Assembly: GCA_022117465.1 (NCBI GenBank)
Contig: JAHCGZ010000006.1
Coordinates: forward strand, 1 to 64,000
Source of the DNA: Candidatus Nitrosopumilus limneticus
GTDB taxonomy: Archaea; Thermoproteota; Nitrososphaeria; Nitrososphaerales; Nitrosopumilaceae
Length of the DNA stretch: 64,000 bases
Direction of reading: 5' to 3'
Position 1 is the stretch's first letter. Each line of letters starts with the position of its first letter. The notes under the pieces were generated by a model. It had not been told where the DNA came from and did no database searches. It saw only the letters and a list, made by a program, of their open reading frames with translations. Of the stretch, positions 3,415 to 10,469 are shown piece after piece. Position numbers and translations under genes: made by a program.

Positions 3415-4308
3415 TTATTTAATATTTTCAGATATTGTATTAGACCACTGTAAAATATCGCCTATATTATTAGATAATAAATCAGAATTAATTTTAGTTT
3501 TTTTAGAAATTTGACCACATAATGCTAATTTCATAAGTTTGTCAGATTTTTTTTTAGTAGGATTAATGGAATCGGCAAAAAACGTTAATCCCTCAGAAGT
3601 TTGAGAAAAGATTACGATCAATAACATGCCAGGTTTTTGTTTCCAAATCTTTCCAACTAATTTTTGAAAATCTAAATCAAATAAAACATTGATTGCAGAT
3701 GACATGTCACCTAAATGAAAAACATTCCATCCATCAGAATGATATGATGCAGAAGCAGATTCAGAAATTAAAATACTTTCAGGATCAGCAGCTATTACAA
3801 CTACATTTTTTTTAGGATCTGATATTATTGGAATTTGATTAAAAATATTTAGAGATTTAGAAATAGTAGTTTTTAGAAGATTTTTTTCTGCAGTTCCAAT
3901 TTTTCCTGAATCATATAGATTGTTGACATGTTCAATTGTAGGATAAATCACTTCTAAAATTAATTTATTAATTGATGAACCTGAATTAAGACAATTTCGA
4001 ATTAGAGAATAGATTTGATTCTCATTACCTTTAATCAATAATTCAAGATATTGTGATATAATTTTAAAGTAATCATCAGGAAAAATAAAAGATTCTTGAC
4101 CAGGTTCTAAAGACCACAATGTTATATTTCCAATATTTTTTTGACGAAGTAATCCTTCGGCTGCAAAAACTTTTAGATATTTTATCATAGTAGTTCTATT
4201 AACATTAATTTTTTTAGAAATCTCAACTCCAGACATGCCACTATCAGAATCTTTCAAAATAGAAATTAATTTTTCTCGAATTTCTTCAGAAACATATCCT
4301 CTAACCAT
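3415..4308 (-). CDS. HTH regulator with B12-binding-like sensor domain
   Basis: About 297 residues. Residues 1-70 form a winged HTH of the ArsR/Lrp type, with a recognition helix near VNRTTMIKYLKVFAAEGLL. Residues 80-165 are helical and resemble the four-helix cap of cobalamin-binding sensors. Residues 165-270 form a Rossmann-like domain resembling the B12-binding fold of CarH/LitR-type regulators. However, the usual DxHxxG ligand motif is replaced by ADPES near the expected position, so cobalamin binding by histidine is unlikely. The start at 4308 is preferred over 4314 because a TATA element (4331-4338) then lies at -27. It is divergent from the 4423 gene, which it may control. Confidence 0.65.
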   Translation of the reverse strand: MVRGYVSEEIREKLISILKDSDSGMSGVEISKKINVNRTTMIKYLKVFAAEGLLRQKNIGNITLWSLEPGQESFIFPDDYFKIISQYLELLIKGNENQIYSLIRNCLNSGSSINKLILEVIYPTIEHVNNLYDSGKIGTAEKNLLKTTISKSLNIFNQIPIISDPKKNVVVIAADPESILISESASASYHSDGWNVFHLGDMSSAINVLFDLDFQKLVGKIWKQKPGMLLIVIFSQTSEGLTFFADSINPTKKKSDKLMKLALCGQISKKTKINSDLLSNNIGDILQWSNTISENIK

Positions 4309-4422
4309 GTTCATCTTTAATCATGGTATTCTATAAAGACTAATTTTCAATAAAATTAAAATAATTTTAAAAATAAAACATTATATACTTGGGTACTTTA
4401 ATGTACGGTAAGGAAAAGTAAA

Positions 4423-4809
4423 TTGCCAAAAGCAGGATTCAAATCAATCACAGTTTCAGAAACAGTTTACGATAAGTTCCACGATGTTTATCAAAAGAGT
4501 AAAGACAATCTTACAATGAAAGGTGTCAATAGTTTTTCAGGTTATGTTACTTACATATTAGAAGAAATGATGCAAAAGGATAAGACATTTGCAAGATATG
4601 CTCCAAAGATAGAAAAAATTTCTGTAGATGATGATCGAGTGATTCTTAAAGACAATATGAAAAATAGAATTGCAGAAGTTGCAGTTCAAAAAGGAGAGTT
4701 ATTTTGTCAGCTTTGTGATCAAAAAGACTGCGTACATGTTGGATATGTATTTTCATTACCAGATGTTTATGAAGTACTAAATGCTAGAGGCATAAAAAAT
4801 CCAAAATAG
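4423..4809 (+). CDS. Conserved protein with RHH-like N-terminus and Cys/His cluster
   Basis: A 128-aa soluble protein with a TTG start. Residues 5-50 have the length and pattern of a ribbon-helix-helix or similar DNA-binding region (SITVSETVYDKF followed by a long helix). Residues 95-105 hold C95-x2-C98-x4-C103-x-H105, a probable zinc or iron-sulfur site. A TATA element is at about 4381-4388. It is divergent from the HTH/B12-like regulator across a shared intergenic region of roughly 110 bases. The combination suggests a metal- or redox-responsive regulator, but this is inference. Confidence 0.6.
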   Translation: MPKAGFKSITVSETVYDKFHDVYQKSKDNLTMKGVNSFSGYVTYILEEMMQKDKTFARYAPKIEKISVDDDRVILKDNMKNRIAEVAVQKGELFCQLCDQKDCVHVGYVFSLPDVYEVLNARGIKNPK

Positions 4810-7294: not shown

Positions 7295-7858
7295 CTATGG
7301 AATGCTTCTACTGTACAATTTACCTTCTAAGGCCATCTTGTACATTTCTGCAACATATGGATTCTCACCAGGAGTTTCTGCACCTAGTTCTACAAGTCGA
7401 GCATATACTCTAACTACGTATGCTAGTGCACCCATGAAAGCTACTACAACTCCCATGTTAAACATCCAGTGATTTGGTACTGCAAATATTTCTTCTACAA
7501 ACCAGAAATGCCACATCTCATTGACCCCAATTGTGAACATTGTTGCAAGGTAACCAAGAATGGTCATCTTTAAACCAGTGTTCATTGAATTGTTAGGACC
7601 TCTAAGAACAGGTATTTTTCTATCATAGATTGCTGCTGCTCCCCATCCAAGTGGTAATGTGATGAAGTGGGAGTATAGCCACCAATGTGCTGGTGTAAAT
7701 GCACTATCTCTGATAGAGGTTTGATGCAAAGAACCATCAACGAAGTTATCAACTTCGACTGATGCTGCAGTGGATCCCATAGCTATGACGATGAGCCAGA
7801 TTTTCTTTAGTCTCTGGATCTCAACTTCTTTTGGAATTAATGCGGGCATCTGTGCCAT
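7295..7858 (-). CDS. amoC: Ammonia monooxygenase subunit C
   Basis: AmoC is the second membrane subunit of AMO and is homologous to PmoC. The 187-aa sequence is the standard archaeal length and has several membrane helices with conserved TPAHWWLYSHF and NEMWHFWF segments. N113, H117 and H130 match the spacing of the Asn/His/His set (CuD-type site) defined in PmoC, and D51, H58 and H64 are further metal-ligand candidates. It starts a leaderless transcript: a TATA element at 7881-7888 is 27 bases upstream. It is divergent from amoB across 256 bases holding a long palindrome. Confidence 0.97.
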   Translation of the reverse strand: MAQMPALIPKEVEIQRLKKIWLIVIAMGSTAASVEVDNFVDGSLHQTSIRDSAFTPAHWWLYSHFITLPLGWGAAAIYDRKIPVLRGPNNSMNTGLKMTILGYLATMFTIGVNEMWHFWFVEEIFAVPNHWMFNMGVVVAFMGALAYVVRVYARLVELGAETPGENPYVAEMYKMALEGKLYSRSIP

Positions 7859-7880: not shown

Positions 7881-7888
7881 GATATAAA
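7881..7888 (-). promoter_or_regulatory. TATA element of amoC
   Basis: TTTATATC on the minus strand, centred 27 bases before the amoC ATG. It is a strong match to the archaeal TATA box and implies a leaderless mRNA. Confidence 0.65.
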
Positions 7889-8007
7889 GCAAGAGATTAG
7901 AATTTTGATGTTTTTAATGAATTTTTTATATAATTTATCTAAATAAAATAAAATAATTATATTTTATTAAAAATTAAGTATTAATAATTATATCATTTTT
8001 TTAGCAA

Positions 8008-8041
8008 TTTCATTGGTTATCATTAATGATAATCAATGAAA
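8008..8041. promoter_or_regulatory. 34-bp near-perfect palindrome between amoC and amoB
   Basis: Two 17-nt arms meet at the centre ATTAAT with a single non-complementary pair (8016 G against 8033 T), which would still pair as G-U in RNA. The outer half is TTTCATTG and the inner half TTATCATT. Because both flanking genes start here and diverge, it is not a terminator. It lies about 30 bases upstream of the amoB TATA element and about 120 bases upstream of the amoC one. The GATAAT/ATTATC-like half-sites resemble those of Fur-type metal regulators, but assignment is speculative. Candidate operator for the AMO genes. Confidence 0.55.
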
Positions 8042-8070
8042 AATATGTCGATCCTCGTTGCCAAGGTAAA

Positions 8071-8078
8071 ACATATAA
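8071..8078 (+). promoter_or_regulatory. TATA element of amoB
   Basis: ACATATAA about 40 bases upstream of the amoB ATG would start a transcript with a leader of about 14 bases. A second TATA-like GGATATAAT lies too close to the start codon to serve. Confidence 0.45.
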
Positions 8079-8114
8079 CGATGAAATCTACCTCCTCATT
8101 AATAGGGATATAAT

Positions 8115-8684
8115 ATGGTCGAAAAAAAGATTCTCGTATTCGGACTAGCTGTAGTACTTGCACTAGGAACATTAGGATTCAACTGGGTTGAATCAGTAAT
8201 GCCAACTGCAAATGCACACGGTGTCCAAGCACAACTCCAAAGTCGTTTCATCAGAATTGAAGATGAAACCTTCAATAGACAATCCCTGCAAACTGGCGAA
8301 ACCTTGACACTTCAAGGAACATTAGTCAGTCTTGTAGAAAGAGACCTTAGAGGATGGTTGTCCATTTTCTCAGAGTCAACCAACGCAGGTAACAGATGGG
8401 AAATGTTAGCAAGAGACCCACCAGGAAACGTCTTTGACATTCCAGGTAATGCTGTTGTTGATTATTCATTATCTGCAAAAGCACTTGAAGCAGGTGTATA
8501 CCACGTACACACCCAACTCAACGTAGCAAAGGTTGGTCCAGGACTAGGTCCAGGTCAAACAGTTGTCGTAGAAGGTGAACCAATTATCAAACCAATTCCA
8601 TATACCAACATCGCATACCAATCAATCATAATTGGCGTCGGATATGTTATTACGTTTGCAACTAGACCTTGGCAAGTTATCTAA
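8115..8684 (+). CDS. amoB: Ammonia monooxygenase subunit B
   Basis: AmoB carries the extracellular copper-binding domain of AMO. The 189-aa protein has a secretion signal with cleavage after NA34, which would expose H35 as the N-terminal ligand. Together with H130 and H132 (YHVH) this reproduces the three-histidine CuB site known from PmoB. A single C-terminal membrane helix (about 164-184) remains. Archaeal AmoB is much shorter than bacterial PmoB and lacks its second cupredoxin domain, as here. It is divergent from amoC. A T-rich tract follows its stop. Confidence 0.97.
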   Translation: MVEKKILVFGLAVVLALGTLGFNWVESVMPTANAHGVQAQLQSRFIRIEDETFNRQSLQTGETLTLQGTLVSLVERDLRGWLSIFSESTNAGNRWEMLARDPPGNVFDIPGNAVVDYSLSAKALEAGVYHVHTQLNVAKVGPGLGPGQTVVVEGEPIIKPIPYTNIAYQSIIIGVGYVITFATRPWQVI

Positions 8685-9758: not shown

Positions 9759-10028
9759 TTACCAATATTTACCATTATCTGGAATAAGACCTATACCTTC
9801 TCTTTCAAAGTGTCTGTCTAATTCATCAACCCATCTCTCACGGTTGTCTTTGTAAGCCCATCCGTGTACACGTAACCAAAATGAGATTACTCCAAGAAGG
9901 AATATTGTAAACATTATGGTTCCGAAGATGTAAATCATTACATCATAGAATAATGGATCATAGTTTGGTCCCAATTGTCCTGTAAGTGATGACAGGATAC
10001 TTAGGAAAGTACCTACGATAGGAATCAT
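9759..10028 (-). CDS. Small membrane protein, candidate AmoY/AmoZ subunit
   Basis: An 89-aa protein with one central membrane helix (about 29-51) and a charged C-terminal tail rich in Arg, Glu, Asp and Trp. A TATA element (TGTATATATC, about 10045-10054) sits 23-26 bases upstream, giving a leaderless mRNA. It and the 10137 gene form a same-strand pair just downstream of the amo cluster. Studies of archaeal AMO report two further small subunits, AmoY and AmoZ, encoded by adjacent genes. Size, topology and context match, but I cannot say from sequence alone which is which. Confidence 0.55.
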   Translation of the reverse strand: MIPIVGTFLSILSSLTGQLGPNYDPLFYDVMIYIFGTIMFTIFLLGVISFWLRVHGWAYKDNRERWVDELDRHFEREGIGLIPDNGKYW

Positions 10029-10136: not shown

Positions 10137-10469
10137 TTATCCTCTACCCATTGCTGCGTATTTACCAGATCTTCCTTTCAAAAAGAAAGCCCCTGCAATA
10201 CCACCGAATACTGCACCTGCAATAATTGCTGCACCAACAACACCATCTGCACTAATGTATGGAGTTCCTGATCCAGCAGCTGGATTTGCTTCAGCAGAAG
10301 CAACTCTTCGACTTTGAATCTCAAGTGCTTCTTCTAAAGTATATGATCCGGTTTGTCCTTCATTACCGACATTGCCCATGTACTGTGCAAATGCTACTGC
10401 ACTTTCTGCATAGAGTCCGATAGTGAAGACAGCGATTAAGGATGCTGCTAATAGTATTTTTGTATTCAT
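10137..10469 (-). CDS. Small exported membrane protein, candidate AmoY/AmoZ subunit
   Basis: A 110-aa protein with a signal peptide (residues 1 to about 27, ending AVAFAQ), an external segment and one C-terminal membrane helix (about 75-97) followed by basic KGRSGKY. Its own TATA-like element (TTAAATAAG, about 10499-10507) lies about 33 bases upstream. It is on the same strand as the 89-aa gene at 9759 but separately promoted. As argued there, the two resemble the accessory AMO subunits AmoY and AmoZ. The alternative is a pair of unrelated respiratory small subunits. Confidence 0.55.
   Translation of the reverse strand: MNTKILLAASLIAVFTIGLYAESAVAFAQYMGNVGNEGQTGSYTLEEALEIQSRRVASAEANPAAGSGTPYISADGVVGAAIIAGAVFGGIAGAFFLKGRSGKYAAMGRG

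Follow-up and report, generated by a model that had tools for sequence, protein, structure and literature searches.

What is the function of the long palindrome that separates amoC from amoB in Candidatus Nitrosopumilus limneticus? A palindrome scan of the window, that is, the whole stretch of 64,000 nucleotides (64 kb) analysed here, placed its best palindrome at 8008..8041, TTTCATTGGTTATCATTAATGATAATCAATGAAA, confirming the earlier note's description of a 34-bp palindrome with two 17-nt arms and one non-complementary pair; the arms enclose no loop. The genes amoC (7295..7858, minus strand; PF04896) and amoB (8115..8684, plus strand; PF04744) diverge around it, and it lies ~31–34 bp before the TATA-like CATATAAC of amoB at 8072, in keeping with the roughly 30 bases given previously. 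Because both flanking genes point away from the palindrome, a terminator reading is unlikely, and an intrinsic terminator was ruled out, as had already been argued. A repeat or mobile element was also ruled out, since a search of the own genome at ≤3 mismatches revealed no second copy. Length alone is only mildly surprising and no strong evidence: when the window was shuffled 200 times (first-order), an equal or better palindrome arose in 8 of the shuffles.

Conserved tandem 13-bp units upstream of amoC

Comparison with related loci revealed that the palindrome represents a recurrent motif, two 13-bp near-dyads in tandem with the core TGWTWAWCA, 13 bp apart, hereafter referred to as the box; the pair forms a long palindrome because each unit is a dyad. 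In the window, motif and column conservation define the units as ATTGGTTATCATT (8012..8024, amoC-proximal) and AATGATAATCAAT (8025..8037, amoB-proximal). Among 111 sites (105 distinct), the G and C of both units were nearly invariant. The window copy is unusually symmetric: the conserved part spans 8008–8037 and positions 8038–8041 are not conserved, indicating that symmetry over all 34 bp is for the most part a feature of this genome alone.

Analysis by column of 61 non-redundant Nitrosopumilus intergenic regions showed conserved islands at 7882–7898, 8008–8037, 8048–8057 and 8063–8083. The first of these (7882..7898, minus strand) is the amoC core promoter, which contains TTTATAT ~24–40 bp before the ATG, a position that suggests a leaderless or nearly leaderless amoC mRNA. 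On the amoB side, the box is followed by a second, strongly conserved element, TCGATCCTCG (8048..8057, plus strand), in the interval between the box and the amoB BRE/TATA region, AAGGTAAAACATATAACGATG (8063..8083, plus strand). The AT-rich spacer between the box and the amoC core promoter (7899..8007) has diverged right beside the conserved box and is almost constant in length despite its low identity; a T-run (A-run on the amoC strand) at 7997..8002, with a conservation of 0.87–0.95 per column, adjoins the box.

Matches to amoB were obtained in 75 of 95 genomes. Nearly all of the amoB upstreams at 70 loci of the genus, one of them from the own genome, contained a related motif at the same place; L075 and L076 had no motif near amoB, and in L066 the motif was located further away. 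The earlier note had proposed that absence of the palindrome from close relatives with the same gene order would count against an operator. We found the opposite: all 64 linked loci of the genus had a related element in the corresponding position.

In these 64 linked Nitrosopumilus loci, which remained of the 70 after six without a divergent amoC start on the fetched piece were dropped, the box start lay between −177 and −180 relative to the amoC ATG; in the window, the 26-mer on the amoC strand begins in the unit at 8025..8037, at −179. Across 73 loci, the gap from the amoC ATG to the box was 151–156 bp (SD 0.8), compared with 59–153 (SD 9.4) from the box to amoB, and other intergenic gaps of the cluster had SDs of 20–59 bp; these statistics exclude loci whose box scored under 20 or whose gaps fell beyond set limits. 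The spacer at 7899–8003 showed 55% mean pairwise identity, by our own estimate not far from chance for such AT-rich sequence, so its length seems to be kept while its sequence drifts. In one genome (G027), extra DNA is inserted between the box and amoB and the amoC spacing is unchanged.

A scoring matrix trained on 59 linked Nitrosopumilus sites, with the window excluded, was applied to 40 further loci, 38 from other genera and two from the same genus. Ten were left out because the amoC start was absent from the piece; in the 30 placeable loci the site was found at −177 to −183 (29 loci) or at −168 (one), each with p ≤ 0.05. Three loci (L090, L103 and L108) matched the matrix weakly.

Retention of the box by separated amoC genes

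Gene separation revealed which of the two neighbours retains the box. All 13 stand-alone or second amoC genes had one, with the best site at −178 to −192 and p ≤ 0.02 each (L227 was classed as linked, and L228 and L229 were omitted as too short). The sites occupied two registers, eight at −178 to −182 and five at −188 to −192, the box thus lying ~10–12 bp further out in the latter. A second register at this distance would fit helical phasing, a reading drawn from five copies. In contrast, the separated amoB genes of five genomes examined (G046, G064, G100, G135 and G245) had no convincing box; the score of 20 at −157 in G135 (L093) was reached by ~5% of shuffles and was counted as no box. Since the box is kept by amoC upon gene separation and the distance that varies little is the one to amoC, comparison of these loci suggests that it belongs with amoC, with amoB probably sharing it. 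The earlier proposal of a regulatory operator is therefore strongly supported by comparison, whereas its placement mainly at the amoB promoter is not, as the evidence points to amoC. The coupling of AMO expression to metal or ammonium status, also proposed there, is hypothetical.

Two further features of these genes were also observed. In G325, two amoC copies (L299 and L313) match piecewise, as if frame-shifted or broken, with the box still present. Distant extra AmoB-like matches (~34–64% identity) occur in four Nitrosopumilus genomes (G035, G007, G067 and G092).

Viral amoC promoters and other archaeal families

Viruses of marine Thaumarchaeota are known to carry amoC as an auxiliary gene. 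In the viral collection, 24 contigs encode an AmoC relative, with upstream regions of 7 types, and in 24 of 24 the best site was found at −91/−92 from the viral amoC ATG. Across hosts and viruses, box units are of TGTTAATCA versus TGTTCAACA type; 18 of the viral sites had p < 0.005, and the six with TGTTCAACA-type units had p values of 0.045–0.085. The viral box lies shortly before a TATA-like TTTATATACT or similar sequence, ending at about −66, ~8 bp before the TATA. When all viral contigs scanned were searched for the exact paired box, it was found in three, all amoC-bearing, and no amoB matches were found in the 24 viral loci. Since host and viral spacings differ, the box did not simply travel with a promoter that stayed the same, and selection keeping it in viruses would be the simplest reading. 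Viral amoC genes were already known, and the passages on archaeal viral amoC in PMC8115048 and PMC11849493 describe no upstream regulatory site. By eye, the viral amoC promoters (L266–L289) often have two TATA-like stretches, the second near −37, with a block reading GTGCC or GGCAC in between.

Three units at about the same place as the pair were found upstream of amoC in f11 and f12, two further archaeal families that are probably the Nitrososphaeraceae and a neighbour of these. With a unit matrix from Nitrosopumilaceae, all 22 upstreams had their best three-unit array between −181 and −193 (p ≤ 0.01 each), and with the two-unit matrix 20 of 22 reached p ≤ 0.05, the f11 loci L251 and L254 having p > 0.1. 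Two f11 loci (L238 and L239) were excluded from these counts because they are the same places as L248 and L261, and several f11 upstreams share a genome (L251–L253, L256/L257 and L258/L259). The signal was weak in f10, probably Nitrosocaldaceae, with two of four loci at p ≤ 0.05 and TGTTAATCAT-like units visible at about −173. As judged by sequence comparison, most of the ammonia-oxidising archaea examined, and also the amoC viruses, thus have a two-part site whose distance to amoC is nearly fixed.

Genome-wide specificity of the box

The earlier note had also suggested a search for the same site at other promoters of the genome. A search of 28 genomes for the paired box with ≤2 mismatches found 27 sites, of which 19 were at amoC or in the amoC-amoB gap, including amoC genes away from amoB (G100, G135 and a second copy in G093); all 11 sites with ≤1 mismatch were at amoC. 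The window box is not among the 27 because it has three differences from the search pattern. Eight sites were located elsewhere, compared with five for a reversed control. In 16 genomes of f10–f12, 13 sites were amoC-linked and six were not, compared with five control hits. The search of these 28 and 16 genomes for the paired box at ≤2 mismatches therefore revealed no targets beyond amoC clearly above chance. Genomes and viruses in these comparisons are interrelated, and the counts are not independent.

Proposed function and alternative explanations

The sequences show the conserved element, its near-constant distance from amoC, its retention by amoC after gene separation, the three-unit arrays, its presence in viruses and its specificity; beyond this, we infer protein binding, activation and sharing with amoB. 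We think it probable that the box is an operator in which two 13-bp dyads adjoin, and that a transcription factor binding there would control amoC, more likely as an activator. Such a putative factor would occupy the box most simply as one dimer per dyad, and in Nitrosopumilaceae, where amoB diverges from amoC, the box is also upstream of the amoB BRE/TATA and would probably serve both genes. The constant amoC-to-box length would be explained by a bent or wrapped complex whose geometry is fixed. Archaeal activators act upstream of BRE/TATA. The box has this location at amoB, ending at 8037 ahead of the BRE/TATA at 8063–8083, and at viral amoC, where its end at about −66 is followed by the TATA; it is also upstream of host amoC, ~120 bp from the conserved amoC TATA, which is far for a classical archaeal regulator. 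It is this location, upstream of the BRE/TATA at viral amoC and amoB and far upstream at host amoC, that in our view makes activation likelier than repression.

More tentatively, and with somewhat less than even confidence, we suggest a single-target control of amoC throughout ammonia-oxidising archaea, in which an array of two or three 13-bp dyads, at an unvarying ~152 bp from amoC, would form a nucleoprotein complex of fixed geometry with the amoC promoter, and marine viruses would have kept this array in a compact promoter, making their amoC responsive to the switch of the host. This suggestion includes the second register, roughly a helical turn more distant from amoC. An operator controlling amoC would offer a handle on how a globally important ammonia-oxidising enzyme may be switched in archaea. 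Being conserved, linked to a single subunit and retained in viruses, the box could serve as bait for finding the regulator; it predicts separate control for amoC, and the viral box makes a concrete claim about viruses keeping ammonia oxidation running during infection.

Among the alternatives, a repressor operator, for example of a Fur- or DtxR-type metal regulator that would lower AMO expression, is unlikely, although it is the most probable of them. Its attraction is the 13-mer AATGATAATCATT, which we take to be the centre of the bacterial Fur box (presumably GATAATGATAATCATTATC); tandem dyads would also suit Fur/DtxR-type repressors, and a protein bound to the viral box, ~8 bp before the TATA, could crowd basal factors. 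On the other hand, a metal regulon would be expected to have further targets, and that none stood clearly above chance speaks against it; a Fur-like set of several targets including iron genes was not seen among the sites away from amoC (8 versus 5 and 6 versus 5 control sites for the paired box at ≤2 mismatches). The large distance to amoC and a location upstream of the BRE, rather than over the TATA or start site, likewise disfavour repression. A distinctly lower probability attaches to a transcribed RNA part, or a long amoC leader of fixed length, in place of a protein-binding operator. The nearly invariant amoC-to-box length (SD 0.8 bp) despite the diverging spacer would be expected from either, but a structured RNA was rejected, as there was no Rfam match and consensus folding of 30 sequences yielded no structure on either strand (the energy was 0.00 for data and controls, so no z-score was obtained), and the conserved TATA close to the amoC ATG and a viral spacing that differs from that of the host also speak against this reading.

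We regard as very improbable that the box is an upstream element of amoB only. Its place ~31–34 bp before the amoB TATA, with a second conserved block in between, is what such an element would show; yet the loci contradict it, since the box is present at every one of the 13 stand-alone or second amoC genes and missing from the five separated amoB genes, viral amoC has it in 24 loci in which no amoB match was found, and it is the distance to amoC that is constrained. Finally, the shuffled windows with an equally good palindrome are all that recommends a chance palindrome in AT-rich DNA, an explanation that the conservation, spacing and matrix comparisons contradict and that we consider negligible.

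Relation to known regulatory sites

The preferred operator, two adjacent 13-bp dyads controlling amoC, resembles some known systems. The 13-mer core may match the Fur consensus, the window unit at 8025–8037 reading AATGATAATCAAT, and AT-rich dyads with AATGATAATCATT as centre would be common to the box and the bacterial Fur box; in contrast to the Fur box, two or three 13-bp dyads abut here, and the site is archaeal and tied to amoC. Archaeal Lrp-type sites, such as the Ptr2 upstream activating site, share short AT-centred dyads upstream of the BRE but differ in sequence, and the amoC box appears to have a single target and a nearly fixed 152-bp gap. Copper-limitation motifs of Nitrososphaera viennensis, according to the excerpts of PMC7785015, are likewise conserved before genes of ammonia-oxidising archaea, but their consensus sequences TTCSGSMTTTGWACYANT and RATTTAAABATAGATTTAAATAATAAS are unlike the amoC box and belong to other genes. 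In N. viennensis, no obvious promoter motif conserved for all six amo genes was identified according to the relevant passage of PMC10030591, a paper on AMO subunits, and in excerpts of PMC3043068 and PMC4010524 the word "palindrome" occurs for CRISPR only. A search of the openly licensed literature by title and abstract start found no description of the amoC box.

Candidate regulators and the amo neighbourhood

Analysis of the amo neighbourhood revealed a conserved 128-aa protein at 4423–4809 that begins with a ribbon-helix-helix-like segment and ends in an invariant CxxC...CxH motif, and which is present in 34 of 38 amo neighbourhoods of at least 12 kb and matches in 187 of 221 genomes. As a regulator of the box it was not supported by co-occurrence, because several box-bearing f11 genomes (for example G295, G296 and G314) had only weak matches and because matches were also found in families without amoC hits. 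The protein had no Pfam or NCBIfam match, and the predicted model was of low quality (mean pLDDT 63) and retrieved no PDB structure at E ≤ 0.001, leaving the fold a guess from the sequence pattern. Downstream of amoB, two small conserved proteins (9759–10028 and 10137–10469), for which no family match was found, may be AmoY and AmoZ by their size and place, as far as these are described in the excerpts of PMC10030591. A protein of HTH and B12-binding type at 3415–4314, located near amo in 30 of the 38 neighbourhoods, is a second candidate regulator.
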